DNA of 36,492 bases. Source: a virus. The notes below the pieces were generated by a model. The model made no database searches. It saw only the letters and a list, made by a program, of their open reading frames with translations, and was not told the origin of the DNA. The translations under genes and the position numbers were made by a program. The DNA lies in the IMG/VR virus record IMGVR_UViG_3300046388_000197, positions 1 through 36,492 of that record; one strand, written 5' to 3'. This document shows positions 1,449 through 25,114 of the stretch, in pieces (position 1 is the stretch's first letter; each line of letters starts with the position of its first letter).

Positions 1449-1494
1449 CCCCTTGGTAGTTTAGGATTAGCGGCGATAGGAACTACCACAGGGG
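1449..1494 (+). promoter_or_regulatory. Interrupted inverted repeat abutting tRNA-Arg
   Basis: Arms CCCC (1449-1452) plus GGTAGTT (1455-1461) can pair with AACTACC (1481-1487) plus GGGG (1491-1494), leaving a 19-base loop and a small internal loop. The last arm includes the first three bases of the tRNA, so this hairpin and the tRNA acceptor stem cannot form together. It may act in transcript folding or 5' processing; this is inferred from pairing only. Confidence 0.4.
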
Positions 1495-1563
1495 CTCATA
1501 GTTAAACGGATATAACTACGCTCTTCTAAAGCGTTATTCTAGGTTCGATTCCTAGTGAGCCTG
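1492..1563 (+). tRNA. tRNA-Arg (anticodon UCU)
   Basis: A full cloverleaf is readable. The 7-bp acceptor stem is GGGCTCA (1492-1498) with TGAGCCT (1556-1562, one G-U pair). The D stem is GTTA/TAAC. The anticodon stem is ACGCT/AGCGT with loop CTTCTAA and anticodon TCT at 1525-1527. The T arm is CTAGG/CCTAG with TTCGATT loop, and the discriminator is G. CCA is not encoded. The tRNA reads AGA, a codon used heavily in the neighbouring AT-rich phage genes. Confidence 0.95.
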
Positions 1564-3146: not shown

Positions 3147-3463
3147 TGACTATTGAAATGGATAAAGAGATAGTCTATACTAAGACTGAAGTTGATCGTC
3201 TTATTGCTGTTGTCAAACATGAGGTTATTGAAGAAGCAAGAGAGATTGATAGGGCTTCTATGGCTAAGCACAACTGGGATGCTACTATTATTAGTATGAT
3301 TCTTGGATTCATTGCACTGTCTTTATTTGTTGATGGGTTGTTAAGGATACTTGGCATCATTCCACCTTTCATGGATTTGGATGTGGATATTATTGATGTT
3401 ATTGTGGAGAGGGTAGAGAATGATCTTATTCCATATATCTCTAATAATCTACCAGGAATATAG
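3146..3463 (+). CDS. Single-pass membrane protein, unknown
   Basis: This 105-residue protein has an acidic, helical N-terminal part (1-45), one hydrophobic span at about 46-72 (ATIISMILGFIALSLFVDG region) and an acidic C-terminal tail. It is coupled to the preceding gene by TAATG. The last codons and stop lie inside a perfect inverted repeat. Function is unknown. Confidence 0.6.
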   Translation: MTIEMDKEIVYTKTEVDRLIAVVKHEVIEEAREIDRASMAKHNWDATIISMILGFIALSLFVDGLLRILGIIPPFMDLDVDIIDVIVERVENDLIPYISNNLPGI

Positions 3464-3475
3464 GTAGATTATTAG
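3441..3475 (+). terminator. Perfect 13-bp inverted repeat over a gene end
   Basis: Left arm CTAATAATCTACC (3441-3453) pairs perfectly with GGTAGATTATTAG (3463-3475) around a 9-base loop. The stop codon of the membrane protein (TAG 3461-3463) sits at the base of the loop. No T-run follows, so it is either a weak terminator or an mRNA 3' end stabiliser; the repeat itself is certain. Confidence 0.6.
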
Positions 3476-3514
3476 TGAAAAATTACACACTCAACTTACA
3501 TACATATATCAACA

Positions 3515-3694
3515 ATGAAATTTTACACCGTGGAAGAATTTCAAAAACATTGGGATCAGCTGATTACAAACGTTGAAAGTGGAGAGATTATAGGTATAAC
3601 AAATGGAGAGGAGACGGCAATATTAACGACAATGGAAGAAGAATTTGAAGAAGAACTTGTGAGGATTTATACTGAGCACAATGATGCGTCGTAA
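3515..3694 (+). CDS. Phd/YefM-like antitoxin-type microprotein
   Basis: This 59-residue protein follows the N-terminal pattern of Phd/YefM antitoxins: MKFYTVEEFQKHWDQL (beta strand then helix), NVESGEIIGITNGEETAIL (turn and two strands), then an acidic helical tail (MEEEFEEEL). Phd/YefM proteins bind DNA as dimers through this fold and neutralise a toxin with the tail. No recognisable Doc, YoeB or PIN toxin is adjacent. The next gene overlaps it by 14 bases and encodes a ParB-like protein. It may be an orphan antitoxin against a host toxin or a small transcription regulator; the fold assignment is by eye. Confidence 0.65.
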   Translation: MKFYTVEEFQKHWDQLITNVESGEIIGITNGEETAILTTMEEEFEEELVRIYTEHNDAS

Positions 3695-4034
3695 GAAGAA
3701 TAAGTCATACAAGAGAGTTACGGACAACAGAGAACCAATTGTTATTGAACATTCTAAAATATGTTATCCATCAGGACCAAAGAAACAAAAACTTGTAGAT
3801 GAAGCAGATCCTTCATATCCAGGTATTGTTATACAATATGATAATGGATATTATCTGATAGAAGATGGAGTTCATAGAATAACAAAACTTCAACAACAAG
3901 GTGTCTATGAGTCACTGTTTTATGTGGTCACAGTGGGCGAATACAAAAGTGGCCTAGTAGAAATGATATGTGGCTCTAACTCTGTTACATTAGGAGAGTG
4001 GAACCACAATAAACTAACTCCACAACCTCATTGA
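3681..4034 (+). CDS. ParB/sulfiredoxin-like small protein
   Basis: This 117-residue protein has a basic start (MMRRKKNKSYKR) and a segment YYLIEDGVHRITKLQQQG near residues 57-74 recalling the DGxHR motif of ParB/Srx-type domains. A following strand has the form YVVTVGEYKSG. ParB-like folds include DNA-binding, nuclease and nucleotidase members; which applies here is unclear. The start at 3681 or the second Met at 3684 is equally possible. It overlaps the Phd-like gene and ends seven bases before the CAU tRNA. Confidence 0.55.
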   Translation: MMRRKKNKSYKRVTDNREPIVIEHSKICYPSGPKKQKLVDEADPSYPGIVIQYDNGYYLIEDGVHRITKLQQQGVYESLFYVVTVGEYKSGLVEMICGSNSVTLGEWNHNKLTPQPH

Positions 4035-4040
4035 GGTAAG

Positions 4041-4114
4041 GGGGGTTTAGCAATCTGGTTGAATGCAGCAAGCTCATAACTTGCCGAAGGTGGGTTCAAT
4101 CCCCACAACCCCCA
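4041..4114 (+). tRNA. tRNA with anticodon CAU (Met or Ile2)
   Basis: The acceptor stem GGGGGTT (4041-4047) pairs with AACCCCC (4107-4113), discriminator A4114. The anticodon stem is GCAAG/CTTGC with loop CTCATAA and anticodon CAT at 4075-4077. The T arm is GTGGG/CCCAC with loop TTCAATC. The paired first base argues against an initiator tRNA. It is elongator Met, or Ile2 if C34 is modified to lysidine; the sequence read here does not decide. CCA is not encoded. Confidence 0.92.
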
Positions 4115-4143
4115 TTGACACTTCAGTGTCATTCCCTTATAAT
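4115..4143 (+). promoter_or_regulatory. Perfect consensus sigma70 promoter with palindrome
   Basis: TTGACA (4115-4120) and TATAAT (4138-4143) are separated by exactly 17 bases, an exact sigma70 consensus. It begins on the base after the tRNA discriminator. A perfect 7-bp palindrome, TGACACT (4116-4122) and AGTGTCA (4125-4131) around TC, overlaps the -35 box and could be a repressor operator. Transcription would start near 4150, just before the gene at 4166. This is an expected layout for an early phage gene. Confidence 0.85.
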
Positions 4144-5442: not shown

Positions 5443-6489
5443 ATGAGTGATAATAAAAAGACAGCACTAGTTCTTGGTGCTGGTGGATTTATTGGTAGTC
5501 ACATGGTGAAGAGACTACGTTCAGAAGGTTACTGGGTTCGTGGAGTTGATCTCAAAGAACCAGAATACGGTGAAACAGAAGCAGATGAATTCATCGTTGG
5601 TGACCTTCGTGACGTAGATCTTGTCAGTCGTGTGATTCGATTCAAAGGGTATTCTGGTAATTTTTATGCCAGTGTTCCTGAAAGATACATTCTTCCTTTT
5701 GATGAAATCTATCAGTTCGCTGCTGATATGGGTGGAGCAGGATTTGTATTTACTGGTGAGAATGATGCAGATATTATGCATAACTCCGTGACTATCAACT
5801 TGAATGTTCTTGACGAACAACGTAAGTTTAATGAGTCGGTAGGAAATAATACTAAGATTTTTTATTCTGGATCTGCATGTATGTATCCAGAACATAATCA
5901 ATTAGATCCTGATAATCCAGATTGTCGTGAAGATTCTGCATACCCAGCTGCACCAGATTCCGAATATGGATGGGAGAAATTGTTTAGCGAACGTCTATAC
6001 TTTGCTTACAATCGTAACCATGGGATCCCTGTTCGTGTTGCTAGGTATCATAATATCTTTGGACCTGAAGGAACCTGGGATGGAGGAAGAGAGAAGGCTC
6101 CAGCTGCTATCTGCCGGAAGGTTATTAACCTCCCGTCACAAGGTGGAGCAATCGAAGTGTGGGGAGATGGTTTACAGACTCGTTCCTTCTTGTTCATTGA
6201 TGAATGCATCGAAGCGACTAGAAGGCTGATGGATAGTGACTTTATGGGACCAGTTAATATCGGTTCTGAAGAGATGGTCACTATCAATGAATTGGTAGAT
6301 ACTGCTGCTAAGGTTGCTGGTAAAGACGTTCAAAAGATTCATATTGACGGACCTCTTGGAGTTCGTGGTCGTAACTCAAACAATAATCTCATCCGTGAGA
6401 AACTTGGATGGGACTATTCACAGACTCTAGAAGAGGGTATTCGTAAGACATACAACTGGATTTCTCAACAAATTAATTTAAATGAATAA
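5443..6489 (+). CDS. GDP-mannose 3,5-epimerase
   Basis: The 348-residue product (ATG 5443; an upstream in-frame TTG at 5419 is less likely) closely matches GDP-mannose 3,5-epimerases of plants and bacteria, extended SDR enzymes that make GDP-L-galactose/gulose. Visible features are the NAD motif GAGGFIG (12-18), AADMGGAGF (93-101), SGSACMYPE with catalytic Cys146, YGWEK with Tyr175 and Lys179, GGREKAPAA with Lys218, GDGLQTRSFLFIDE, and VRGRNSNNNLI. All expected catalytic residues are present. It is the first gene of the glycan cassette and overlaps the next by 8 bases. The upstream cupin may help supply mannose phosphate. Confidence 0.9.
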   Translation: MSDNKKTALVLGAGGFIGSHMVKRLRSEGYWVRGVDLKEPEYGETEADEFIVGDLRDVDLVSRVIRFKGYSGNFYASVPERYILPFDEIYQFAADMGGAGFVFTGENDADIMHNSVTINLNVLDEQRKFNESVGNNTKIFYSGSACMYPEHNQLDPDNPDCREDSAYPAAPDSEYGWEKLFSERLYFAYNRNHGIPVRVARYHNIFGPEGTWDGGREKAPAAICRKVINLPSQGGAIEVWGDGLQTRSFLFIDECIEATRRLMDSDFMGPVNIGSEEMVTINELVDTAAKVAGKDVQKIHIDGPLGVRGRNSNNNLIREKLGWDYSQTLEEGIRKTYNWISQQINLNE

Positions 6490-7195
6490 GGTACCTTTAT
6501 TTGGAACACAATCTTTAAACTCAATAACAAATCTAAAAAGATTAATCGAATCAATTGATTATCCTGTAGAAATTTTATCTATTGTTATCAATAATGAAAA
6601 TGTTAATTTCTTTTTGGATATGTTAGAGTATTCTAAAAATGAAATTGATAAAGATCTTATTGAGAAGGTTGATATTAGTTTTCATCCTACCAATTTAGGA
6701 TGTCCAGGTGGATGGAATTATCACTTTACATCGTATCCTCAGTGTGATTATTTCGTCAAAGCTGATGATGATGTAATCTTCCATCCAGGAGGATTAGAAA
6801 AGATGATCAAAGGATTAGATGAATGTGATATTCTTTTTCATAACGAATCAAATACAAAATATGCTTGTTTTGCTTTGAAAAAGAAAGTTCTTAAAGAAGT
6901 TGGATTGTTTGATACTAATCATTACCCTTGTAACTATGAAGACGCTGATTATGAAAAACGTTTGAGAGGAGTGAATGTAGGGATGTTTAATGAAGAAATA
7001 ACATATCATCATCCATGTGGAACTAGTAGAAATATGTCGAAAGAAGACCATGAAAAATATCTTCAAAAGTACATAATCACCACAGAAGAATATCACAAGA
7101 AAAAGTGGAATGGTGAATTTGGAGACCCATTAAACTGGAATTATAATTTTGATTATAGAGAAAACAAAGTTTTGAGATTTGGTGATTACAAATGA
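6482..7195 (+). CDS. Family 2-type glycosyltransferase
   Basis: This 237-residue protein has a GT-A fold pattern. LGCPGGWNYHF (about 73-83) is typical of rhamnosyl/GT2 enzymes, and DYFVKADDDVIF (about 89-100) carries a DDD/DxD metal-nucleotide motif. ALKKKVLKEVGLFD and YEDADYEKRL carry the expected acceptor-side acidic residues. It would transfer a sugar from a nucleotide-sugar donor. It overlaps its neighbours by 8 and 4 bases. This gene is visibly more AT-rich than several later cassette genes. Confidence 0.85.
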   Translation: MNKVPLFGTQSLNSITNLKRLIESIDYPVEILSIVINNENVNFFLDMLEYSKNEIDKDLIEKVDISFHPTNLGCPGGWNYHFTSYPQCDYFVKADDDVIFHPGGLEKMIKGLDECDILFHNESNTKYACFALKKKVLKEVGLFDTNHYPCNYEDADYEKRLRGVNVGMFNEEITYHHPCGTSRNMSKEDHEKYLQKYIITTEEYHKKKWNGEFGDPLNWNYNFDYRENKVLRFGDYK

Positions 7196-7767
7196 AGACA
7201 TTACAAGAAATTCTAAAAGAACATAACCTGAACATTACGGATAATCCAGATTATGGGACAGACAAGGGAGAACCAAAGTCATTCGTCGATGGGTTCTATC
7301 GGGAGAAGTTTGAACCACTGAGAAACAAGAAAATCACACTGGTTGAGATTGGTGTTCGTTCTGGAGCTTCTTTGAAATTGTGGAAGGAGTTCTTCTCTAA
7401 TAGAGCAACGATCATTGGTATCGATAACTTTACTGATTTTAATCAACACAAGATACCATATCATGAGGAATGGTTATCTGATGGTGTTCAGTTCATCGAT
7501 GCTGATGGATACACTCAAGAGACTGTAGATAAGATCGATGGTGGTATTGATATCCTCATCGATGACGGTCCTCATACTCCTGAGAGTCATCAGAAACTTC
7601 TAGAATTATATCTTCCCAAAATGAATAAGGGTGGATATATTGTCATCGAAGATATCTCATATAATCCAGATGCTATCTTCTCATCTGTCCCAGAGGAACT
7701 TCAAGACGATGCATATGTCTGTGACTTTGGTGGATACGACGACAGATTGATAATTATTCCCACTTAA
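7192..7767 (+). CDS. SAM-dependent methyltransferase, sugar-type
   Basis: This 191-residue class I methyltransferase has motif I VEIGVRSGASLKLW (about 51-64), an acidic strand end IIGIDNF, IDILIDDGPHTPESH (about 119-133) and GGYIVIEDI. The pattern recalls cephalosporin-hydroxylase-like and sugar O-methyltransferases that modify surface glycans. In this cassette it could cap or decorate a sugar. It is joined by ATGA to the upstream glycosyltransferase and followed by a 4-base gap. Confidence 0.75.
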   Translation: MKTLQEILKEHNLNITDNPDYGTDKGEPKSFVDGFYREKFEPLRNKKITLVEIGVRSGASLKLWKEFFSNRATIIGIDNFTDFNQHKIPYHEEWLSDGVQFIDADGYTQETVDKIDGGIDILIDDGPHTPESHQKLLELYLPKMNKGGYIVIEDISYNPDAIFSSVPEELQDDAYVCDFGGYDDRLIIIPT

Positions 7768-7771
7768 TTCT

Positions 7772-8563
7772 ATGAAGATCTACGATTGTTTTATTTTCCA
7801 CAATGAAATCGAATTGTTGGAATTGCGTCTGAACATCTTGAATGATGTTGTTGATAAGTTTGTCATCATTGAAGGTGATACAACCTTCTCTGGTGTTAGG
7901 AAGGAGAGTAACTTTCTGAAGAACAAGGAAAAATTTAAACAATGGGAAGATAAAATCATTTATGAATTTGTTGAAATCCCTGACTACAATGTTTCATGGG
8001 ACAGGGAGATCTTCTCTAGAAATTATTTCTTGAAACTCCCTATCTTTGAAGATGAAGACGTGTTGATATCGAGTGATCTGGATGAAATTCCTAATCCTGA
8101 TGCAATTGAACAGGTAGAAGACTGGATGGAAAGTGATACTCACTTTACTTTCCGTATGAATTTTTACATGTATTACTTGAATAATTTCAAAACATCAGAA
8201 TGGTTTGGATCAAGAGTTGCTACTTATGGATATTTGAAAGATAAGACTGTTGACGATCTTCGGGAAGCCACTGAAGATGAAAATAAAATTAGTGGACCTA
8301 TCATTGATGGTGGAGGATGGCATTTCAGTTACCTGGGTGGTGAAGAAATGATCCGAGAGAAGATTGAGTCTTTCTCTCATGTAGAACACAATAATGATTA
8401 TACAAAATCAAATATTACTAGTAATCTTGAGAGGAATGTAGATCTTTTTGGTAGAAATTATCAACCATATAAAGTGGTTAGTATGGAGAAAGATGAATAT
8501 CCAGAGTATCTCCTAAACAATATTGAAAAATACTCACACTTGATTAAAGATGTTAGCAACTGA
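7772..8563 (+). CDS. GT17 family glycosyltransferase (MGAT3-like)
   Basis: This 263-residue protein matches family 17, named for the eukaryotic beta-1,4-N-acetylglucosaminyltransferase III. Motifs are MKIYDCFIFHNEIELLELRL (1-20), DKFVIIEGDTTFSG, SSDLDEIPNPD (around 99-109, the acidic nucleotide-sugar site), and GGWHFSYLGG. The substrate in a phage is unknown. It overlaps the next gene by 14 bases. Confidence 0.85.
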   Translation: MKIYDCFIFHNEIELLELRLNILNDVVDKFVIIEGDTTFSGVRKESNFLKNKEKFKQWEDKIIYEFVEIPDYNVSWDREIFSRNYFLKLPIFEDEDVLISSDLDEIPNPDAIEQVEDWMESDTHFTFRMNFYMYYLNNFKTSEWFGSRVATYGYLKDKTVDDLREATEDENKISGPIIDGGGWHFSYLGGEEMIREKIESFSHVEHNNDYTKSNITSNLERNVDLFGRNYQPYKVVSMEKDEYPEYLLNNIEKYSHLIKDVSN

Positions 8564-9425
8564 AATTCTTAGAGGTCAGGGTATTGGTAATCAACTATCC
8601 TGCTATGTAACTGCGAGGTCTATCGCTCACACTAGGGGACTAGACTTTGGTGTCAAGGACACTGGTTGGAGTGGAGATAAGAGGTATAATCAGAGTGGTT
8701 TTTATTGGTTTGATCTTGACTGGGGACAAGAAGTTCCAGATGGTTTAGATGTTTATTATGAAAAAGAGGTAAGAAAGAAACTCAACACATGTCATCATGA
8801 TATGACTATTGGGTGTGATGTTAGAGGTTATGACCAGGGACTCATAGATGTTCCTGACAATACTATAATCTTTGGTAACATGCAAGATGAAAAGTACTTT
8901 CACCATAACAAAGAGTTAATCAAAGAGTGGTTAAAGGTCAAGGAAGAGTATGATACATATGAATACATGGACGATGATGTCTGTGTATTAAATTATAGAG
9001 GTGGTGAGTATGTTGGATTTGGTGAGTTGTATTTGACCAGAGAATACTGGTTGAACGCTATGGAAAACATGACAAAGATTAATCCAAACATGAAATTTGT
9101 CGCCATTACTGATGATGTGAAGGCATCACAGGACATGTTACCAGAGATTCCAGCTTATCATTTCACTGTTGATAAGGATTATGCTATCATTAAAAATTCA
9201 AAACATGTGATTCTGTCCAATTCTAGTTTCCCATTCTTCGCTGTATATACTAGTGATACCATCGAAAACATTATTGCTCCCAAGTACTGGGCTAGACATA
9301 ATGTATCTGATGGATATTGGGCAATGTCACAGAACATCTACAGTGGTTGGACATATCAAGACAGAGATGGTAATCTATCAACATCTGAGGAGTGTGTAAA
9401 AGAATTGAAGAAGTACAATGGATAA
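8550..9425 (+). CDS. Divergent GT11-like fucosyltransferase
   Basis: This 291-residue protein resembles alpha-1,2-fucosyltransferases. It has GQGIGNQLSCYVTARSIA at the start (GLGNQ-type motif), FGNMQDEKYF (near 108-117, cf. YGYFQTEKYF) and NSSFPFFAVY near the end (cf. NSSFSWWGAW). The usual HxRRxDY donor motif is altered to NYRGGEY at 148-154, so the donor or activity may differ from the true GT11 at 13732. Confidence 0.7.
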   Translation: MLATEILRGQGIGNQLSCYVTARSIAHTRGLDFGVKDTGWSGDKRYNQSGFYWFDLDWGQEVPDGLDVYYEKEVRKKLNTCHHDMTIGCDVRGYDQGLIDVPDNTIIFGNMQDEKYFHHNKELIKEWLKVKEEYDTYEYMDDDVCVLNYRGGEYVGFGELYLTREYWLNAMENMTKINPNMKFVAITDDVKASQDMLPEIPAYHFTVDKDYAIIKNSKHVILSNSSFPFFAVYTSDTIENIIAPKYWARHNVSDGYWAMSQNIYSGWTYQDRDGNLSTSEECVKELKKYNG

Positions 9426-10107
9426 GGTTTTGATAGTATCGAATCACAACTCTGATCTTGAATGGTTGAGTACCACATATGATTATGGTTTCTCTCCTGA
9501 GAACACAATCATCTATGACAGAAGTGATGAGGTAAAGGACTGGAGTCACCTTGGTGAAAGTATTCGATCCCCCAATGTTGGTGAGAATATCTACGATATT
9601 ATGAGATATATCGTAGAACATTATGATAGTCTCCCTGATATTTGTATCTTTATCAAGGGTAATATGTTCCAACGTCAAATGGGTGGTGCAGAGTATTATA
9701 CAACTTATGATAGGTTCTGTCGTGCTCTAAATGTTGAATATTTCTTGCCTATCGAACGTTTTCACCAAAGCACATATGTGGTTGTTAATGGTGGTGGATT
9801 CATTGAACCAAATTGGGAACCAAAATCTTGTCCAACAATTTATTCAAGATATTTTTCTACAATTCCAGAGATGATTCAAAAGTTATTTGTAAATCCACCA
9901 AACTTTTCTTATAATAGATTCGCTCCTGGAGGAAATTATGTTGTTCCTAAGGGAAACATTTTAAAATTTAGTAAACATTTCTACGAAAAATTAAAATCTT
10001 ATGTATCATATGAACCTCCTGAAGGATTTCAAAGTACTTCTGGTGAATCATACTTGATCGAAAGACTTCTTTATTTGATGTGGACAGAGGATTTGGTTGA
10101 ATTATGA
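9418..10107 (+). CDS. DUF3431-like putative glycosyltransferase
   Basis: This 229-residue protein resembles DUF3431 proteins. The supporting part is NVGENIYDIMRYIVEHYDSL followed by PDICIFIKGNMFQRQ (near 53-86), then FAPGGNYVVPKGNILKFS and ERLLYLMW near the end. Such proteins are commonly found with glycosyltransferases; biochemical function is not established. It overlaps its neighbours by 8 and 4 bases. Confidence 0.65.
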   Translation: MDKVLIVSNHNSDLEWLSTTYDYGFSPENTIIYDRSDEVKDWSHLGESIRSPNVGENIYDIMRYIVEHYDSLPDICIFIKGNMFQRQMGGAEYYTTYDRFCRALNVEYFLPIERFHQSTYVVVNGGGFIEPNWEPKSCPTIYSRYFSTIPEMIQKLFVNPPNFSYNRFAPGGNYVVPKGNILKFSKHFYEKLKSYVSYEPPEGFQSTSGESYLIERLLYLMWTEDLVEL

Positions 10108-10922
10108 TTTCTGTATATGGTGGTACTGGATTTATTGGTGGAGTATTTTGTGACCTATATCCCGATGAAGTTATAAAGATACCCAGAGAGTCTAGGAAAC
10201 CTGAGTCGAAAGACATACTGTACCTTATAAGTACAACTTCAAACTATAATATACTTGAAGACCTGCATGTAGATATCAATACTAATTTGAATGTGTTGAT
10301 GGAAACCCTTCAATATTGTAAGGATACTGATACTACCATTAACTTCATCAGTACTGGATTTGTTTATGGTCTAGATGTTATTGATGCTAAAGAGACAGAT
10401 CTCCCAGATCCTAGAGGACTGTACTCGATCACAAAGAGATCTGCGGAAGAAATTTTAGTTTGTTTCTGTGAGAACTTTGGGTGTAAGTATCGTATTATTA
10501 GGCTCTCTAATGTATATGGAACTGATAAGACTATCTCTATGAAGAAAAATGTTCTCGGTTTCATGGTGAATAAGTTGAAGAATAACGAAGACGTGTGTCT
10601 GTATGAGGGAGGAATGGTCTACAGAGACTATATGCACGTCGATGACGTGTGTCGAGCCATCAAGTTCCTGATGGAACACGGAGAAGAAAACGAAATATAC
10701 AACGTTGGCACTGGACATCCTATGTACTTCTATGATATTATAGGAATGGTTAGGGACACTATACCAGGATGTACCAGTGAAATTACTTCTATGGAGACTC
10801 CAGAGTTTTACGCAAAGAATCAGTCTAAGAATTTTCATTTGAATTGTGAAAAATTAATTCAATTAGGCTTTAAACCAAATATTTTATTACAGGCTGGAAT
10901 TGAGAAATTATGTACCAATTGA
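10104..10922 (+). CDS. NAD-dependent sugar epimerase/reductase (SDR)
   Basis: This 272-residue extended SDR protein has the dinucleotide motif GGTGFIG (6-12), the catalytic Ser/Thr region STGFVYG (83-89) and YSITK (Tyr107, Lys111), followed by RLSNVYG. The protein is short for a 4,6-dehydratase and resembles 4-keto reductases. Its position directly before the E1-type dehydrase recalls the RfbH-RfbJ/RfbS arrangement that completes 3,6-dideoxyhexoses, but that role is inference. It overlaps the next gene by 13 bases. Confidence 0.75.
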   Translation: MISVYGGTGFIGGVFCDLYPDEVIKIPRESRKPESKDILYLISTTSNYNILEDLHVDINTNLNVLMETLQYCKDTDTTINFISTGFVYGLDVIDAKETDLPDPRGLYSITKRSAEEILVCFCENFGCKYRIIRLSNVYGTDKTISMKKNVLGFMVNKLKNNEDVCLYEGGMVYRDYMHVDDVCRAIKFLMEHGEENEIYNVGTGHPMYFYDIIGMVRDTIPGCTSEITSMETPEFYAKNQSKNFHLNCEKLIQLGFKPNILLQAGIEKLCTN

Positions 10923-12205
10923 TTGAAAAGTTCATCCAAGACGCCAAGGAGATGGACGACAATGTGTTTCCATTCATGGCTAACAAGGATTGGAAACCTG
11001 GAAAGAATGTATACTACTCTGGTCCCTATTGGGATGATTTAGAAGCACAGGAACTCATCTATGGTGTCATGAAGGGTAAGTGGTTATCCTCTGGTGAGAA
11101 GGTGAATAAGTTTGAGAAGGAGTTCTCTCAGAGATTTGGGTTTGATTACTCAGTCATGGTGAACTCTGGGTCATCAGCAAACCTGGTGATGATTGCCGCA
11201 CTCAAGAAATATTTTGGATGGGAAGATGGTGACGAGATCATCGTCTGTTCCTGTGGTTTTGCTACAACCATTGCACCTATTGTTCAGGCTGGTCTGAAAC
11301 CAGTGTTTGTTGATATCAACTGGCAAGACCTGAACTGGAATATGGATGAGGTCTTCTCAAAGGTAACACCTAGAACTCGTGCCGTATTCTCTTCTCCTGT
11401 CTTGGGTAACGCATATGACATGAACAGACTGGTGAAGTTCTGTAATGGTAAGGGTATCCATATCATTGCAGACAACTGTGACAGTCTGGGTAGTAAGTAC
11501 AAAGATGATTACCTGACTAAACATTCTATCGCTGCATCTTGTTCCTTCTATCCTGCACACCACATCTGTACCATCGAAGGTGGTATGGTATCGTCTAACA
11601 TCAAAGCAATTGTAGACCTGGCTCGTAGTTTTGCTTGGTGGGGTCGTGGTTGTTATTGTGTTGGACAACAGAATCTGTTGAGTAATGGTGTCTGTGGCCG
11701 TCGTTTTGATAAGTGGTTAGAAGGATATGATGACATCGTTGACCACAAGTATATGTTCGGTCAGATGGGATACAATCTAAAACCATTGGACATGCAGGGT
11801 GGAGTTGGTTCAGTTCAACTCATGAAGTTTGATGAGATTCATAGATTGAGGAGGAAAAACAAGAAGAGTATTCAGAAGATCATTGAGACTATTCCTGGTT
11901 GTCGTGTTGTGAATGAACGTGACGATAGTGAGACAAGTTGGTTTGGTGTTCCTATCATTTGTGATGACGGTAAACTTAAACGCTCTTTGGTTGCTTTCCT
12001 AGAACAGAACAAGATCCAGACTAGGAACTATTTTGCTGGTAATATTCTCCTACATCCTGGTTATTCACACCTTGATGATGCCAAGAAGTATCCAGAAGCC
12101 AACAAGGTTCTTAACAAAGTATTCTTCTTGGGTTGTTCTCCCGTCATCACTGATGATATGATTGGATATATTACTGACACTGTGAAAAGATTCAAGAATG
12201 ATTGA
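10910..12205 (+). CDS. E1/RfbH-type CDP-hexulose 3-dehydrase
   Basis: This 431-residue DegT/AHBA-fold protein is E1-like rather than an aminotransferase. The PLP lysine of the family is replaced by His217 in SFYPAHHIC (212-220). Cys190, Cys248, Cys250 and Cys262 form a C-x57-C-x-C-x11-C pattern, close to the [2Fe-2S] ligands of E1/RfbH. E1 enzymes use PMP plus electrons from a reductase (E3/RfbI) to remove the 3-hydroxyl of a 4-keto-6-deoxyhexose. No E3, RfbF or RfbG gene lies in this window, so electrons and substrate must come from elsewhere. Bases look less AT-rich than in neighbouring genes. Confidence 0.85.
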   Translation: MYQLIEKFIQDAKEMDDNVFPFMANKDWKPGKNVYYSGPYWDDLEAQELIYGVMKGKWLSSGEKVNKFEKEFSQRFGFDYSVMVNSGSSANLVMIAALKKYFGWEDGDEIIVCSCGFATTIAPIVQAGLKPVFVDINWQDLNWNMDEVFSKVTPRTRAVFSSPVLGNAYDMNRLVKFCNGKGIHIIADNCDSLGSKYKDDYLTKHSIAASCSFYPAHHICTIEGGMVSSNIKAIVDLARSFAWWGRGCYCVGQQNLLSNGVCGRRFDKWLEGYDDIVDHKYMFGQMGYNLKPLDMQGGVGSVQLMKFDEIHRLRRKNKKSIQKIIETIPGCRVVNERDDSETSWFGVPIICDDGKLKRSLVAFLEQNKIQTRNYFAGNILLHPGYSHLDDAKKYPEANKVLNKVFFLGCSPVITDDMIGYITDTVKRFKND

Positions 12206-12875
12206 TTTGCCTGAAGTGACACTTATTTGTGTCTCTAGTATAAATTTTGAACAGACCTTGTATGCTTTTCAAAAAAGTATGCAGGGTATTCGTTTTGGTG
12301 CAGTAAAACTAATATCAGATCAAGACCGTCCTGACTTTGAAGAAGCAGGTATTAGTGTAGAGAAGTGTCCAAAGATCACTTCTATTGATGAGTATAGTCA
12401 TTACATGGTCTATGACCTACAGAAACATGTAGACACAACTCACTGTATTACTATCCAGGCTGATGGGTTTATTATCAACCCTGAGAAGTGGGATCCACTG
12501 TGGTTAGAGTATGATTACATTGGAGCACCATGGGAACACTCTGACGGGGCATACATTGACCCTTGGGGAGGACATCAGAGAGTTGGTAATGGTGGATTCA
12601 CTCTCCGCTCTAAGAAACTCCTAGAGGTTCCTAACAATGCTTACGTTCACTTTGATGTGAACTGGGGTAACTTCTATAAACACATGGATGCAAACAACAC
12701 CGCAGAAGACGGATGTATCTGTGTTCACAACAGACATATATATGAAGTATTAGGTTGTAAGTTTGCTCCTGTAACTGTTGCGGCAAGGTTTGCACACGAG
12801 AAACCTGTTCCAGAAACCAGAGGTATCACACCTTTTGGATTCCATTATCATCTCCCACCGGGGACTGTTTTATGA
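12198..12875 (+). CDS. DUF5672 putative glycosyltransferase
   Basis: This 225-residue protein matches DUF5672: YDYIGAPWEH (about 105-114), RVGNGGFTLRSKKLLEVP (128-145) and a downstream EDGCICV (about 171-177). The first part, FEQTLYAFQKSM, is also typical. The family is regarded as glycosyltransferase-like and lies in surface-polysaccharide clusters. It overlaps the E1-type gene by 8 bases and the next by 4. Confidence 0.75.
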   Translation: MIDLPEVTLICVSSINFEQTLYAFQKSMQGIRFGAVKLISDQDRPDFEEAGISVEKCPKITSIDEYSHYMVYDLQKHVDTTHCITIQADGFIINPEKWDPLWLEYDYIGAPWEHSDGAYIDPWGGHQRVGNGGFTLRSKKLLEVPNNAYVHFDVNWGNFYKHMDANNTAEDGCICVHNRHIYEVLGCKFAPVTVAARFAHEKPVPETRGITPFGFHYHLPPGTVL

Positions 12876-13735
12876 AAATTATTATTTGGGGACACTATCC
12901 CCTTCATAGTTCAACGCACGGATATATTCACGACACATATTACAAAGCTTTCACTAGTCTAGGTCATGATGTAATGTGGGTCTCTAATGAACCACACAAT
13001 CTAGATTACACTGACGCTGTATTTTTTGTAGAGGACTCACAGAAGTCCCATATGCCAGTCATAAAAGATTGTAGGTACATTACTCACCATGTACCTACAG
13101 AGTATTTGACTGATCGTGGAGTTCCTTATGAGAATGTATTAAAACTGGGTAATTGTATCCGTGATACTGTTCATTTTGAAAAGATTGAAGACCTCTGTCA
13201 TTGGGATGAATCAACCAGGACTCTGTATCAAACCTGGGGTACTGACCTTCTTCCTGATGAGATTGATGTTGATAATTATGAAAAGTTTGACCCATCAAGG
13301 AAGAACATCAACTATGTTGGTATGATGTATGAACAGGGTCCTTACTGGCTTGAGAGCTTTGCACACTATGCAGAGAATAATGGTAAGAAAATTCAATTAT
13401 ATACCCAATCAATCGAACACTCAGAGAATCGTAGATTGATTCGTGACTCCTATATCTGTCCAGATTTCAGGAGTGACTGGCATCTTCAGTGTGGTTATAT
13501 TCCCTGTCGTATACAAAAGAACATCAGTTATGGTAGAATTCCAGGGACGAATTCACCATTCATCAAGGAAGCCTTTGGTGACTATGTGGTTTTTGGTGGT
13601 ACTCCAGAAACTCTCTATAATAACCTTGTTCAAGCAGAGAGGAGTAGTAGTATTAATATGAGAGAAGCCATGCAGTTCATTAAGGACAAACATACTTACG
13701 TCAACCGCATTAATAATATTCTGAAATTCTTATGA
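12872..13735 (+). CDS. Putative GT-B-type glycosyltransferase
   Basis: This 287-residue protein begins MKIIIWGHYPLHSSTHGYIH, a GT-B-like first strand and loop, and carries KNINYVGMMYEQGPYW near the middle and GRIPGTNSPFIKEAFGDYV near the C-terminal donor region. Similar proteins are seen in cyanophages, but I cannot assign a CAZy family. It is coupled by ATGA on both sides to glycosyltransferase-type genes. Confidence 0.55.
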   Translation: MKIIIWGHYPLHSSTHGYIHDTYYKAFTSLGHDVMWVSNEPHNLDYTDAVFFVEDSQKSHMPVIKDCRYITHHVPTEYLTDRGVPYENVLKLGNCIRDTVHFEKIEDLCHWDESTRTLYQTWGTDLLPDEIDVDNYEKFDPSRKNINYVGMMYEQGPYWLESFAHYAENNGKKIQLYTQSIEHSENRRLIRDSYICPDFRSDWHLQCGYIPCRIQKNISYGRIPGTNSPFIKEAFGDYVVFGGTPETLYNNLVQAERSSSINMREAMQFIKDKHTYVNRINNILKFL

Positions 13736-14523
13736 TTGGTTTTAATCATCTTGGTATCGTTGGAAGACTGGGTAACCAGATGTTCCAATATGCTACACTT
13801 CGTGGTATTGCACATCACAGAGGGTATGAATTCACTATCCCCGAAAGTGATTTTAAGGATGAGTGGAATGAACATCAACTCTTTGATGCATTCAATCTTC
13901 CACACTTAAAGAACAGAGGAAGAGTTTCTGATAAGTTTGTACAGGAAAGACAATTCAATTATGATTCTGAATTGGTTGAACAGTGTCCTGACGATATTAG
14001 TCTCTACGGATATTTTCAGACTGAAAAATACTTCTCACACATTGCAGACTCTATTAAAGAAGACTTTACATTCAAGAAGGATGTAGTGACAAACTGTAAA
14101 GAGGTTATGGAGGAACTGTCAGAACCTATTGCACTTCATGTTCGTAGGACTGACTATGTTGAGAAAGCACAAGACCATCCCCCTTGTAGTTTGAAGTATT
14201 ATCATACTGCACTAAAACGTTTCAATGAGAAGAGACCTGTTGTTATCTTTACTGATGATGTAAAGTGGTGTAAGGAACAGGATATCTTTAAACCAGACAG
14301 GTTTATGATATCAGAGACAAACAACAATGTTTATGATCTATGTCTTATGACTCTATGTACTGATTATATCATTGCAAATTCTTCATTCTCTTGGTGGGGT
14401 GCATGGTTGAGTCAGAATCCTGATCCAGAAGTTGTTGCACCTAAGACTTGGTTTGGTTCTACTGGTTATACTGCCAAGAACAACACTGTTGATATTGTTC
14501 CTAATCGTTGGTCTAAGATCTAA
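13732..14523 (+). CDS. GT11 alpha-1,2-fucosyltransferase family protein
   Basis: This 263-residue protein carries the GT11 signatures GRLGNQMFQYA (11-21), LYGYFQTEKYF (91-101), the HxRRxDY motif as HVRRTDY (136-142), VIFTDDVKWC and NSSFSWWGAWLS. Family members transfer L-fucose, or in some cases another GDP-sugar, in 1,2 linkage. GDP-L-galactose from the upstream epimerase would be a chemically close donor, which is speculative. It overlaps the previous gene by 4 bases; the next starts one base after its stop. Confidence 0.88.
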   Translation: MIGFNHLGIVGRLGNQMFQYATLRGIAHHRGYEFTIPESDFKDEWNEHQLFDAFNLPHLKNRGRVSDKFVQERQFNYDSELVEQCPDDISLYGYFQTEKYFSHIADSIKEDFTFKKDVVTNCKEVMEELSEPIALHVRRTDYVEKAQDHPPCSLKYYHTALKRFNEKRPVVIFTDDVKWCKEQDIFKPDRFMISETNNNVYDLCLMTLCTDYIIANSSFSWWGAWLSQNPDPEVVAPKTWFGSTGYTAKNNTVDIVPNRWSKI

Positions 14524-14524
14524 A

Positions 14525-15466
14525 ATGATTTTTGTTACTGGAGCTGCTGGTTTTATCGGTAGTAATTTTGTTCATCATCTTGTCAGTAAAGGGCATGATG
14601 ATATTATAATTCTTGATAAGTTATCCTATGCCGCAAACATGGATAACTTATTTCCATTTAAATTTCCTGTAGAAGTAGTTGATCTGGTTAATAAGAATTA
14701 CCTTGAAGAGTTGTTTCAAAAATATGAACCAGATATTATATTTCATTTTGCGGCAGAGTCTCATGTAGATAATTCTATTGATGACGCAAAACCTTTTGTT
14801 GATTCTAATATTATAGGTACACTCAATCTTCTTGAGTTATCTGTAAAGTATAAGGTACAGAAGTTCCATCACATCTCTACTGATGAGGTCTATGGTGCAT
14901 TGGGGTATGATGATCCTCCTTTCACAGAAGAAACACCTTATAATCCTCAGAATCCTTACTCTGCATCTAAGGCTGCTAGTGATCACTTCGTAACAGCATT
15001 TGGGAATACCTATGGGTTACCAGTTATTATTACTAACTGTTCTAATAACTATGGTCCACGTCAACATAGAGAGAAGTTAATTCCTAAAACTATTACTAAT
15101 ATTCTTGAAGGTAAAAAGATTCCTGTCTACGGTAGAGGTCAGAATATTAGAGATTGGATTTATGTTGAAGATCATTGTCAAGGAATCTTAGATGTTTTTT
15201 ATGGTGGTGGAGTGGGTCAGAAATATAATATTGGTGGTGAATGTGAGGTTAAAAATATTGATTTGATTAAAACTATTATTAATATAATGGGAGCAAGTGA
15301 GGATTTAATTGAATATGTTGATGATAGACCAGGACATGACTTGCGATATGCGATTGATAATACTAAAATTAAAAAGACATTAAACTTTTATCCTCAACAT
15401 ACTCTTGAAGAAGGGTTAAGAAAAACTATCGATTGGTATAAAAATGTTATGGGAGTAACTAAATGA
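14525..15466 (+). CDS. rfbB: dTDP-glucose 4,6-dehydratase
   Basis: The 313-residue product is read from ATG 14525, giving a start at the NAD strand MIFVTGAAGFIGSN; the longer frame back to 14432 overlaps GT11. RmlB/RfbB features are GAAGFIG (6-12), FAAESHVDNSI (75-85), STDEVYG with Asp120-Glu121, YSASK (145-149), NNYGPRQHREKLIP and RDWIYVEDHC. It makes dTDP-4-keto-6-deoxyglucose, precursor of rhamnose and other deoxysugars. No rmlA, rmlC or rmlD is present here, so these are probably host-supplied or the product is used otherwise. Confidence 0.9.
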   Translation: MIFVTGAAGFIGSNFVHHLVSKGHDDIIILDKLSYAANMDNLFPFKFPVEVVDLVNKNYLEELFQKYEPDIIFHFAAESHVDNSIDDAKPFVDSNIIGTLNLLELSVKYKVQKFHHISTDEVYGALGYDDPPFTEETPYNPQNPYSASKAASDHFVTAFGNTYGLPVIITNCSNNYGPRQHREKLIPKTITNILEGKKIPVYGRGQNIRDWIYVEDHCQGILDVFYGGGVGQKYNIGGECEVKNIDLIKTIINIMGASEDLIEYVDDRPGHDLRYAIDNTKIKKTLNFYPQHTLEEGLRKTIDWYKNVMGVTK

Positions 15467-16227
15467 CTGAAATATCCATATGTATACCCACTTATGAGTT
15501 CAAAGGTGAAGGAGTAAAGTACCTCTCAGAGTTGTTTGACACCTTACAATCTCAGACCTTTCAAGATTTTAATATTGTTGTATCAGATCATAGTGTTGAT
15601 TATGAGATTCATGACTTCTGTAAGGAGAAGAGTGAAATTTTTGAGATCATCTATGTTAGAAATGAATATAGTAGAGGAAATTTAGGTCCTAATACTAATG
15701 TAGCACTGGAGCATGGTACCGGTAGGATATTGAAAGTAGTTTATCAAGATGACTTGTTCGTGGATAATGAAGCCTTACAGAAGTTGAAAGATACTTATGA
15801 TAATGGATGTAAGTGGGCATTCAATTCTTTCTGTCATACAAAGGATGGTGTTACCTTTTTTAGAGAGGTAGTTCCTAGATGGTGTGATAAAATGTTGGAG
15901 GGAAGGAATCTATTAGGCAATCCTTCTGGTATTTCATTACTTAACTCTTGTAAGATGTATATGAGTGAAGACCTAAATCTTTTGGTAGACACTGATTTGT
16001 ATCATAGAATGAGAATTACACACGGTCTTCCATATATTATTGAAGATGTTCTTACAGCAACAAGAGAACATGAGAATCGAACCAGTTCTAGTAGAATAGT
16101 CTATGATTATCAAATAAATCATCCTGAGGGTGGTTGGATTGTTAATAAAGCAGAATTAGATATATTACACTCTACATATAAAGAGTTCTTTGAAGGAGGT
16201 GAGAAGTATCCAGATGAACAAATTTGA
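15463..16227 (+). CDS. Family 2 glycosyltransferase
   Basis: This 254-residue protein starts with the GT2 pattern ISICIPTYEFKG (4-15), LQSQTFQDFNIVVSDHS (28-44), and a donor site at VYQDDLFVD (about 93-101). It would be cytoplasmic and use a nucleotide sugar. It is joined by ATGA to the dehydratase and overlaps the next gene by 14 bases. Confidence 0.85.
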   Translation: MTEISICIPTYEFKGEGVKYLSELFDTLQSQTFQDFNIVVSDHSVDYEIHDFCKEKSEIFEIIYVRNEYSRGNLGPNTNVALEHGTGRILKVVYQDDLFVDNEALQKLKDTYDNGCKWAFNSFCHTKDGVTFFREVVPRWCDKMLEGRNLLGNPSGISLLNSCKMYMSEDLNLLVDTDLYHRMRITHGLPYIIEDVLTATREHENRTSSSRIVYDYQINHPEGGWIVNKAELDILHSTYKEFFEGGEKYPDEQI

Positions 16228-17044
16228 TCTATCAAGGGCAACCTTTATTATCCCAATCAGAATTGAATCTGATGACAGACTGAGGAATGTAATTACTTCA
16301 GTCTGTTTTTTGTTGTCTAATTTTAAAACCCATGTTATCATCAAGGAGGTTGATAAGACCTCTGTGTTTCATGAGAAAGCACTACCACAGATCAAAGAGT
16401 TCTGTGGAGACATTGGTGATTTAACTCATGTATTTGAACAGTCAGACTCTCCTACTTTCCATAGACAGAGAGTTCTGAATGACATGATTATGATGGCAAA
16501 CACAGAAGTGGTTGTTAACTATGATTGTGACGTTATCCTTCCTATTGCTTCTTACATGCAAGCATATGATAGGATCGTCACTCATCGATCTGATGTGGTG
16601 TATCCCTATGGTAATGGAGACTTCCAAATACAAGTCTTTGCTGATGATCAAGTCGTCACAAATTTTCTTGTGAGTGACTTTGACTTCAATGCCTTTAAGG
16701 GTGTATCAAAAACCTATGACGCCAAGTATGGTTTCGTTCAATTCTTCAATAGAGATGTCTATATTGAAGGTGGACTGGAGAATGAGAACTTCATTGCTTA
16801 TGCTCCGGAGGATGTTGAAAGATATTATAGATACACTACATTAGGATACGGTGTTTCTAGAATCAATGATGTTATCTATCACTTAGAACATTCTAGAACT
16901 CCAAATTCATGGTTCAATAACCCATACATGTCTTCAAACAACATTGAATGGGAAAAGATTCAAAGGATGGATAAAGAAACTTTGAGAGAGTATATTACAA
17001 ATCAAGATTATTTAAAGGTGAGACTCGATGATAATAAGGGATAA
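16214..17044 (+). CDS. GT2/GT7C-like glycosyltransferase
   Basis: The 276-residue product is read from ATG 16214. It has FIIPIRIESDDRLRNV near the start, FHRQRVLNDMIMMANTEVVV with NYDCDVILP (a DCD donor motif) and YGFVQFFNRDVYIEGGLENE followed by YAPEDVERYYR. This C-terminal block is typical of galactosyltransferase/chondroitin-polymerase type (Glyco_transf_7C) domains. It overlaps the following GT25 gene by 17 bases. Confidence 0.75.
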   Translation: MNKFDLSRATFIIPIRIESDDRLRNVITSVCFLLSNFKTHVIIKEVDKTSVFHEKALPQIKEFCGDIGDLTHVFEQSDSPTFHRQRVLNDMIMMANTEVVVNYDCDVILPIASYMQAYDRIVTHRSDVVYPYGNGDFQIQVFADDQVVTNFLVSDFDFNAFKGVSKTYDAKYGFVQFFNRDVYIEGGLENENFIAYAPEDVERYYRYTTLGYGVSRINDVIYHLEHSRTPNSWFNNPYMSSNNIEWEKIQRMDKETLREYITNQDYLKVRLDDNKG

Positions 17045-17825
17045 GAACAAATCAGCATTCAAACTAAGGAATTTTGGTCCTGTATATTGTATAAATCTCG
17101 ATGATCAACCTGAGAGATGGGAGTATATGGAGGACCAGTTTAGATACTGGGACATCACAAACTACCATCGTATCTCTGCCTATGATGGTAGAGATGATGA
17201 TCTAAGTGAAATTCTCAAGGGTCGTTATCCAGATATGATGACTTCTGGTGAGATTGGTTGTACTACGTCTCATTTAAAAGCAATCAAAGAATTTTATGAT
17301 TCGGGTGAACCCTATGCAATCATGATGGAAGATGATTGCGAACTTGATTTGGTAAGGTTCTGGAACTTTACTTGGCAAGACTTCCACGCTAAGATTCCTT
17401 ATGATTGGGATGTATGTCAGATTGCAATCATCTGTACAGGAGACATTCACATTAAGATTCATAAAAGGTTTGTGAATGAATTCTCTACAGCATGTTATAT
17501 TATTACTAGGCACCATGCAGAGAAGTTAATTAGACTTCACTGTAGAGGTGATAAGTACAAATTGGATAATGGTGTTAGGCCACGTCCAGTTGCTGACGAT
17601 TTGATTTACAATTCGGGCAATACTTATGCCCTTCCACTTCTCTTATACAAGACAGAGTTGGGATCAAGTATTCATCCCGATCATGTAGAGGTCTTCCATA
17701 AAGGTAATTATCAGGCCCAGATGAATTTCTGGAGTCAGAAGGGAGCACAGATGTCTATCGATGAATTGATGGAGTTTGATCCTTATTTGGGTCGGGTATC
17801 CGATCCGACACAAAATAAGGGTTGA
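17028..17825 (+). CDS. GT25 LPS-type glycosyltransferase
   Basis: This 265-residue protein matches glycosyltransferase family 25: VYCINLDDQPERWEYMEDQF (about 19-38), GEIGCTTSHLKAIKEFYDSG (75-94) and AIMMEDDCELD (97-107) with the acidic donor site. Family members add galactose or related sugars to LPS cores. It is the last gene of the cassette; the next promoter overlaps its stop region. Confidence 0.85.
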   Translation: MIIRDKNKSAFKLRNFGPVYCINLDDQPERWEYMEDQFRYWDITNYHRISAYDGRDDDLSEILKGRYPDMMTSGEIGCTTSHLKAIKEFYDSGEPYAIMMEDDCELDLVRFWNFTWQDFHAKIPYDWDVCQIAIICTGDIHIKIHKRFVNEFSTACYIITRHHAEKLIRLHCRGDKYKLDNGVRPRPVADDLIYNSGNTYALPLLLYKTELGSSIHPDHVEVFHKGNYQAQMNFWSQKGAQMSIDELMEFDPYLGRVSDPTQNKG

Positions 17826-17855
17826 CAAAATTCAATGTCCCTACTATTATAAATA
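17822..17855 (+). promoter_or_regulatory. Overlapping early and late promoter
   Basis: TTGACA (17822-17827), a 17-base spacer and TATTAT (17845-17850) make a near-consensus sigma70 promoter. The late box TATAAATA (17848-17855) overlaps the -10. The 12-mer CTATTATAAATA is shared exactly with the late box at 28491-28502. The downstream outer-membrane gene could thus be expressed in both phases. Confidence 0.75.
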
Positions 17856-17884
17856 CTTAACCTTTTGCTTATATCTAATTTTTG

Positions 17885-17943
17885 TAACGAAAGGTAACGG
17901 AGAGCTAACGATTCTCCTTTCATCTGCGGGTAACCATTCCGCA
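17885..17943 (+). promoter_or_regulatory. Structured leader with three TAACG repeats
   Basis: TAACG occurs at 17885, 17895 and 17906, spaced 10 and 11 bases, as in multi-site operators. Hairpin arms GAAAGG (17889-17894)/CCTTTC (17916-17921) and GGAGA (17899-17903)/TCTCC (17913-17917) share bases and are mutually exclusive. TGCGG (17925-17929)/CCGCA (17939-17943) forms another stem. The region lies in the 110-base leader of the next gene and could bind a protein or switch structure. Confidence 0.5.
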
Positions 17944-23798: not shown

Positions 23799-24020
23799 AT
23801 GGTTAATTCGTGGAGTTTACTTTACGACGAACTTTATGGAGATGATAAAATGAGTGAGGAAGAATTAAAAGATTTTGCTATGAATTATAAGAGTAATAGA
23901 CAACTAATAGAAGAACAAGAGAAAAGGATCAAAGCATTGGAAGGTTATTGTACCAGATTAGAAGGTAAGTTAATTGGTATGATGAAAGTATCAGAGTTGT
24001 ACAGTTTAGATAAAAAATAG
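23799..24020 (+). CDS. Hypothetical coiled-coil protein
   Basis: The 73-residue product is read from ATG 23799 (a TTG at 23784 overlaps the previous stop). It has an acidic start and a heptad-like helix (RQLIEEQEKRIKALEGY). Function unknown. Confidence 0.55.
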   Translation: MVNSWSLLYDELYGDDKMSEEELKDFAMNYKSNRQLIEEQEKRIKALEGYCTRLEGKLIGMMKVSELYSLDKK

Positions 24021-24053
24021 ACAAAACAACACAACAATTAATGAGCACAACTA

Positions 24054-24146
24054 ATGTCAACACCTCTTATAGAACTTATATGTCTTATTGTAGGATTCGT
24101 TTGGATGGGTATATTGATACAGTATATGCAAGGGAGGGATGAGTGA
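24054..24146 (+). CDS. 30-residue membrane microprotein
   Basis: One hydrophobic helix (LIELICLIVGFVWMGILIQY) and a polar tail. Its stop overlaps the GTG start of the next gene (GTGA), supporting translation. Confidence 0.55.
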   Translation: MSTPLIELICLIVGFVWMGILIQYMQGRDE

Positions 24147-24349
24147 GTTGGTTACCAGATTCTTTTAGTGTTTATAATTTACGTAAATTGAATGTGGATT
24201 ATGGATGGGAAGAAAGACTAAAAAAGGATGATGAGAACTGCGAAGAAAAAAAACTTCGTATGATGTATGGAAATAAGAAGGTTGGTAAAGATTGGAAAAA
24301 GTTTAAAAGGAGAATTTATAATGAGACCATATCAGAAGAGGGCTATTGA
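24143..24349 (+). CDS. Small basic hypothetical protein
   Basis: This 68-residue protein starts at a GTG in the preceding stop. It is strongly basic in its second half (KKVGKDWKKFKRR). Not recognised. Confidence 0.5.
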   Translation: MSWLPDSFSVYNLRKLNVDYGWEERLKKDDENCEEKKLRMMYGNKKVGKDWKKFKRRIYNETISEEGY

Positions 24350-24557
24350 ATGGATTGCTTCTCAGTTAAATACATCTTTAAAAATACAAGAGAAGAAGGA
24401 TTGGAAAGGTCGAAGAATTAGGAGAGTTGGTTTTGATTATGTCCCAGAAGAGTATGAAGAGGATTGGGGTAACGATATAAAGGAGTGGAAAGAAGAATTT
24501 GAATCTGCTAGATTAGAATCAATAGATAGAGGAAAAAAATGGATGAAAAGAGGATAG
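24321..24557 (+). CDS. Small charged hypothetical protein
   Basis: The 78-residue product is read from ATG 24321, which has an AGGAG ribosome site 8 bases upstream; it overlaps the previous gene by 29 bases. Highly charged with several Trp. Function unknown. Confidence 0.55.
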   Translation: MRPYQKRAIEWIASQLNTSLKIQEKKDWKGRRIRRVGFDYVPEEYEEDWGNDIKEWKEEFESARLESIDRGKKWMKRG

Positions 24558-25114
24558 GAGTAGTAGGTATGAGAGATGAACTTTTAAAAATGCTAAGAGA
24601 GAAATCTTATCGTAGAGGTGAGTTTAAACTTTCTTCTGGTGAGATTAGTGAGCATTATATAAATTGTAAACCTGTTATTTTAAGTCCAGAAGGTCTTAGA
24701 CTTACAAGTTATTCTATGTTGGAATATATTGAATCTGATTCAGTATCGGTAGCAGGACTTACTCTTGGTGCCGATCCTTTGGTATGTGGAGTTTCTTTAG
24801 TATCTTTAGAATCTGCTTGGTGTACAACACAAAGTGGTTTGATTGTTCGTAAGCAAGCAAAGGGACATGGTACAGGTGCCTGGATAGAGGGCCCACTCCC
24901 TCCTGAAGGGTCCAAAGTAACTGTCTTGGAGGATGTAGTCACTACTGGCGGATCATCCCTTAAAGCAGTGGAGAAGTTGCGTGATGCTGGATATGTAGTA
25001 GAAACTATTGTTGCTATTATAGATCGGCAAGAAGGTGGTAAAGAGGCAATGGAAAAATCTGGGATAACTTTAAAATCTTTATTTACTATAGAGGATTTTG
25101 TGAAGGAAGATTAA
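24539..25114 (+). CDS. pyrE: Orotate phosphoribosyltransferase
   Basis: This 191-residue protein (ATG 24539 has GAGG six bases upstream; ATG 24569 matches the family's usual start better) is a type I PRTase. Key motifs are RRGEFKLSSGEISEHYINCK, the PRPP motif VTVLEDVVTTGGSS with the Glu-Asp pair, and GLIVRKQAKGHGTG for the catalytic loop. It converts orotate plus PRPP to OMP in pyrimidine synthesis, complementing the purine genes further on. Confidence 0.92.
   Translation: MDEKRIGVVGMRDELLKMLREKSYRRGEFKLSSGEISEHYINCKPVILSPEGLRLTSYSMLEYIESDSVSVAGLTLGADPLVCGVSLVSLESAWCTTQSGLIVRKQAKGHGTGAWIEGPLPPEGSKVTVLEDVVTTGGSSLKAVEKLRDAGYVVETIVAIIDRQEGGKEAMEKSGITLKSLFTIEDFVKED

Follow-up and report, generated by a model that had tools for sequence, protein, structure and literature searches.

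A gene for a small protein with the predicted N-terminal fold of the Phd/YefM antitoxins occupies a fixed slot among the tRNA genes of many marine cyanophages, and in some of them it is overlapped by an optional gene for a single-domain protein of the ParB/sulfiredoxin fold. We tentatively propose that the first product is an orphan antitoxin-like microprotein that is expressed with the tRNAs and silences host toxins targeting translation, and that the second is a coupled passenger. Each family had already been recognised, and the label 'Phd-like antitoxin' was given to PHROG_375 by the authors of PHROGs. What looks new is the fixed location among the tRNA genes, together with the conserved gene overlap; no prior description of the slot regularity, of the overlapping pair or of a 'Phd-like antitoxin' in a cyanophage was found among open-licence papers.

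The stretch of DNA analysed, referred to as the window, comprises 36,492 nucleotides (IMG/VR record IMGVR_UViG_3300046388_000197). It is a cyanomyovirus contig with psbA-, talC-, purM-, purN- and ferredoxin-like open reading frames (ORF list judged by eye), and its DNA relatives are Synechococcus and Prochlorococcus phages. The features considered are the following.

1492..1563, + strand: tRNA-Arg (UCU), the other tRNA gene of the window
3515..3694, + strand: Phd/YefM-fold microprotein of 59 amino acids, PHROG_375; N-terminal domain at residues 1-40, conserved acidic tail at residues 41-59
3681..3694, + strand: 14-nt overlap of the Phd-like and ParB-like genes, ATGATGCGTCGTAA
3681..4034, + strand: ParB/sulfiredoxin-fold protein of 117 amino acids, single-domain, with DGVHR (GxxR, P motif)
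4041..4114, + strand: tRNA-Met (CAU), 7 nt 3' of the ParB-like gene; in relatives it bounds the Phd slot on the 3' side
4115..4143, + strand: sigma-70-type promoter, perfect TTGACA-17-TATAAT, preceding the next gene (PHROG_552)

The original prediction had reported genes of 59 and 117 residues overlapping by 14 bases, and both frames were confirmed; the tRNA-Met gene that follows them had been missed. Both are real genes and neither is due to chance, because they have relatives in many contigs and their dN/dS values over four contig pairs were 0.19-0.40 (Phd) and 0.08-0.22 (ParB). The comparison of the window with the relative L017 gave 0.40 and 0.22, and the other pairs gave 0.19-0.23 and 0.08-0.18, respectively. 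Both genes are under purifying selection and maintained, with no sign of positive selection. Fast evolution of the Phd-like protein in an arms race was considered, as it shares 80% identity with its L017 counterpart while the neighbours share 90-98%, but it was rejected given the dN/dS of 0.40 and a dS that was also raised. Elsewhere in the window, a 142-amino acid ORF (12-440) had a weak PADLOC match to a homing-endonuclease model (E 6.3e-5), positions 2163-2861 encode a PHROG_591 protein with a HEGWH zinc-protease-like motif and a signal-like N-terminus, and a long series of sugar epimerase/glycosyltransferase-like genes (5500-17900, ORF list judged by eye) stands right behind the tRNA region.

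The strand-helix-strand pattern of Phd/YefM that had been read from the 59-residue sequence was reproduced by an AlphaFold2 model built from 44 sequences (the window and IMG/VR). Residues 1-40 were modelled with a pLDDT of 91-95 as a strand (2-5), two helices (6-11 and 13-21) and two strands (26-29 and 34-37), and the tail was predicted to be disordered. Foldseek matched the model to Phd, VapB46 and YefM with a probability of 1.00, the rmsd to Phd being 1.0-1.3 over 41 columns, and VIA-align superposed it on the Phd DNA-binding domain (4zlx) with Z 6.5 and an rmsd of 1.2 over 44 aligned residues. Sequence profiles agreed with the modelled resemblance. PHROG_375 matched the protein with E 5.5e-7 (residues 1-59 against profile positions 4-73 of 74), and a profile of its relatives found VapB46 as the best PDB sequence match (E 4e-4) and also Phd (E 0.16). 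The comparison with PF02604 that had been suggested gave a divided answer: 12 of 13 relatives matched at E <1 (best 2.2e-5), and the window protein itself scored 14.2 bits against a Pfam gathering score of 29.8. It is therefore a member of PHROG_375 that is not filed under PF02604. PADLOC and NCBIfam returned nothing informative on it. Taken together, the model and the profiles support well a Phd/YefM N-terminal fold, in a protein about the size of the Phd N-terminal domain plus a short tail.

Phd of phage P1, YefM of E. coli, VapB46 of M. tuberculosis and PF02604 share with this protein the beta-alpha-alpha-beta-beta N-terminal fold and a disordered acidic C-terminal tail. Unlike Phd, YefM and VapB46, it has a shorter tail, lacks the TRRGR turn, falls under the Pfam gathering score and has no toxin gene beside it. 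The PHROG_375 members of the cyanomyoviruses S-SM2, Bellamy, S-TIM5 and RB11-B resemble it in family, length, N-terminal motif and adjacency to tRNA genes, while the window copy diverges from them in lacking the PADD hinge, in a 4-residue acidic insertion with respect to its nearest relative and in having the ParB-fold gene next to it. No relatives of the family were found when 84,980 cellular genomes were scanned by pattern, and hence no bacterial relative adjoining a toxin.

The acidic tail noted in the original prediction was confirmed, the net charge of the whole window protein being -12. Conservation across 44 relatives is higher in the tail than in the folded region (mean column entropy 0.84 and 1.06, respectively); E47, L48, R50 and T53 are each present in at least 90% of them and D/E45 and D/E57 are also nearly fixed. 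A tail that is conserved yet predicted to be disordered is what would be expected of an antitoxin tail that binds a partner. The domain and the tail are both acidic in these relatives (mean -4.4 and -4.3), and where Phd has a basic TRRGR turn they have TN-GK, the Asn being present in 41 of the 44 and replaced by Asp in 3; the R/K at position 19 is retained in 43. The loss of the turn would disfavour a purely DNA-binding role, and the conserved disordered tail and weakened basic surface would fit partner binding better than DNA binding alone.

A profile scan of IMG/VR yielded at least 446 relatives of the Phd-like protein, of which the best 80, representing 65 distinct loci, were analysed. Among these loci, a tRNA gene stood directly beside the Phd gene in 51. 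A downstream tRNA gene within 50 nt was found in 48 of the 65 (40 tRNA-Ile and 8 tRNA-Met), as compared to 92 of 924 other ORFs of the same loci; an upstream one within 70 nt was found in 39, being tRNA-Pro in 36, and 36 loci had tRNA genes on both sides. In 8 of the 14 loci lacking a near tRNA gene the ParB gene intervenes. The Phd gene is also located beside tRNA genes in the cultured phages S-SM2, Bellamy, RB11-B, S-TIM5, SynMITS9220M01, S-BM3 and S-SCSM2R; no toxin genes were found beside it in cultured relatives, where the flanks consist of tRNA genes and hypothetical genes. This fixed slot among the tRNA genes is a stronger regularity than the pairing with ParB. Because the tRNA region of cyanophages contains many genes, the position by itself is weak evidence of function.

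The second gene had been described as ParB-like with a DGVHR motif, and the motif is present in its product. AlphaFold2 predicted a ParB/Srx domain only (mean pLDDT 83.8), which Foldseek matched with a probability of about 1.00 to SerK, sulfiredoxin (Srx), Noc and ParB; structural alignment to ParB/Srx-fold structures reached a Z of 9.3, and the nearest structure was SerK, whose catalytic glutamate is E30. Residues D62, G63, H65 and R66 of the motif (D62-G63-x-H65-R66, GxxR P motif) were invariant in 49 relatives. The protein had no match to a Pfam family; a profile of its relatives gave weak matches to free serine kinase and SbnI, and NCBIfam gave a hint of SbnI far under the cut-off (E 0.0044). 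Canonical partition ParB proteins carry an HTH and a C-terminal dimer domain and are encoded adjacent to parA, whereas this protein has no room for either domain and no parA was found among the neighbours of its gene with PHROGs or Pfam. On the basis of the model, it is most likely an NTP-binding protein of the ParB/Srx fold and not a partition ParB. Single-domain ParB-CTPase-fold proteins of about 100 amino acids occur in phages, and the fold can bind CTP, ATP or GTP (PMC12704722). The 117-residue protein resembles those phage proteins, as well as SerK, SbnI and sulfiredoxin, in being a stand-alone ParB/Srx fold of about 100 residues with a GxxR P motif. Unlike the short proteins surveyed in that work, it belongs to a cyanophage-specific family (PHROG_35149/17560-like) with no Pfam match and its gene overlaps a Phd-like gene.

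Conservation of the pair in cyanomyoviruses, which had been proposed as a check, was borne out: the ParB gene starts within the end of the Phd gene in 21 environmental contigs. In 20 of them the two genes share 11-17 nt; the value is 50 nt in L131, where the longest ORF was used and the start was probably taken upstream of the true one. Some of the ParB partners are identical, and the most distant share about 55% identity. Both the similarity to Phd and the co-occurrence of the two genes, the absence of which had been named as counting against the original prediction, were thus found. The pairing is not obligatory. Close ParB genes without an adjacent Phd gene were found in 19 other contigs, mostly behind a 2OG-Fe(II) oxygenase gene, and 57 of the 65 distinct Phd loci (from the best 80 of at least 446 relatives) lack ParB. 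The only complete cultured genome with a close ParB gene, S-SCSM2R, has its Phd gene elsewhere, beside tRNA-Pro. The second home of ParB has its own regular arrangement, the start codon lying within the end of the oxygenase gene, typically with a 16-nt overlap (L115, L117, L119-L126, L128-L130, L132, L133 and L137; the same home is found in S-SCSM2R at 23966-24897). Two contigs with nearly identical Phd genes represent the empty and filled states: in L036 tRNA-Met follows Phd after 12 nt and in L037 ParB is located at that point, which shows ParB to be a cassette lying between Phd and the tRNA gene that follows. In three contigs (L022 2606-3226, L025 3303-3923 and L027 3344-3946) the slot also holds a third ORF of about 200 amino acids that overlaps the last part of the ParB-like gene; the copies tested had no matches in Pfam, PHROGs or PADLOC.

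These arrangements raise the possibility that Phd and ParB are cargo with no relation to each other in a hypervariable tRNA region, with an overlap that reflects ordinary gene packing and no joint function. The presence or absence of ParB beside near-identical Phd genes, its 16-nt overlap with the oxygenase gene and the insertion of another ORF in the same slot all speak for this explanation. Against it, the pair recurs in several ParB groups, the Phd-linked state needing at least 4 changes on the ParB tree, at least 2 of them forced by well-supported branches, and the length of the overlap is nearly constant. We regard unrelated cargo as rather unlikely.

Alternatively, the Phd-like protein could be a small regulator of transcription, acting on the tRNA operon or on the promoter that follows it and using only the half of the Phd fold that binds DNA. 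Its model fits best to the Phd N-terminal DNA-binding domain, to truncated Phd and to operator complexes; its gene has a fixed position in the tRNA array, and the array is followed by a strong promoter whose -35 carries an inverted repeat. In the window, the TTGACA of this promoter is the 5' arm of a hairpin with arms at 4116-4122 and 4125-4131, and the perfect promoter starts straight after tRNA-Met in many relatives as well (for example L003 2830, L023 3428, L036 838 and L099 2209). As an operator for Phd, the inverted repeat was rejected. Its arms covary: in 19 relatives a change on one side of either of the two variable pairs is matched on the other (15 cells), the observed covariation score was reached in 0 of 500 shuffles, and the loops are often TTCG or TTCT. 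Such compensatory changes are expected of an RNA hairpin, unlike an operator, and the repeat looks like a hairpin that closes the tRNA array and shares bases with the promoter of the next gene. The acidic domain and tail and the lost basic turn also argue against a regulator, although R/K19 is retained, and it seems to us an unlikely role. Another hairpin (3433-3483, 13-bp stem CTAATAATCTACC/GGTAGATTATTAG, no U tract) is located between the end of a 105-amino acid ORF and the Phd gene; it was discarded as a conserved element, being present in the window and L017 and absent from the other relatives folded. The late promoter motif CTAAATA was not more frequent in the window than expected by chance.

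The original prediction had also offered a new toxin-antitoxin-like module, in which the toxin would be the ParB-fold protein; the antitoxin-like gene does come first with the second gene overlapping it, the pairing is conserved in 21 contigs and S-SCSM2R does have a Phd gene elsewhere, but this was dropped as the main reading and is highly improbable, since ParB occurs without an adjacent Phd gene in 19 contigs (11 partial records searched whole contained no Phd, which as fragments counts weakly), most Phd genes lack ParB, the ParB gene is a removable cassette and we know of no ParB-fold type II toxin. The absence of an adjacent Doc, RelE or PIN toxin had been predicted correctly: no toxin was found among the neighbours of the pair in Pfam or PADLOC, and they match PHROGs 8074, 7360, 552 and 7851 only. 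With a pairing that is not obligatory and no toxin beside it, the Phd-like protein is probably not half of a type II toxin-antitoxin module.

The reading that we prefer, with rather less than even confidence, remains that of an orphan antitoxin-like microprotein of Synechococcus myoviruses with an optional ParB-fold passenger. The decoy against a host toxin that the original prediction had listed is compatible with it. Since its gene lies inside the array tRNA-Pro, Phd, tRNA-Ile, tRNA-Met, it is presumably co-transcribed with the tRNAs. Most likely, its tail would bind and silence a translation-attacking type II toxin of the host (of the YoeB, Doc or VapC type), and the tRNAs of the array would support translation. 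The ParB gene would have been inserted between Phd and the next tRNA gene as a passenger or accessory and not as the toxin of Phd; its translation is probably coupled to that of Phd through the overlap, as its start lies inside the Phd gene, and its product probably binds NTP.

Matching toxin-antitoxin systems in the hosts count in favor of the antitoxin reading of PHROG_375. Synechococcus CB0101 has yefM/yoeB, two phd/doc and vapBC pairs, and pairs were found in eight other marine Synechococcus and none in Prochlorococcus (PMC5498466). In Synechococcus WH8102, a PIN-PhoH operon thought to be a toxin-antitoxin module limits phage Syn9 (PMC5490813). The cultured carriers of the Phd gene were all Synechococcus phages or cyanophages; that it is absent from Prochlorococcus phages carries no significance, given how few such records there are and how rare the gene is in cultured phages. 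Antitoxin genes in another cyanomyovirus, S-CREM1, have likewise been proposed to counter host toxin-antitoxin systems (PMC9964418); they are of three types, YefM, TacA and MazE, and the part of that report considered here describes neither a tRNA slot nor a ParB-fold partner. Counting against the antitoxin reading are the tail of about 19 residues, shorter than in Phd or YefM, dN/dS values with no sign of an arms race, and the lack of an adjacent toxin partner and, in the pattern scan, of cellular relatives beside a toxin.

It has long been asked why phages carry tRNA arrays. A broader and decidedly speculative possibility is that the array is a translation-protection operon, in which the tRNAs would replace those destroyed, the Phd-fold protein would silence toxins that cut tRNA or mRNA, and one lineage would have added a coupled, nucleotide-sensing ParB-fold protein to switch or assist the antitoxin. 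As to why phages have such arrays, recent work points towards host defences that target tRNAs (PMC10264068, PMC11555353). The ParB-fold partner offers a small natural case of a phage ParB-CTPase-fold protein that has a single domain and whose gene partner is defined. An antitoxin-fold gene in a fixed array slot of many marine cyanophages would link the tRNA arrays with tRNA-targeting defences, a link that can be tested with known Synechococcus toxins.
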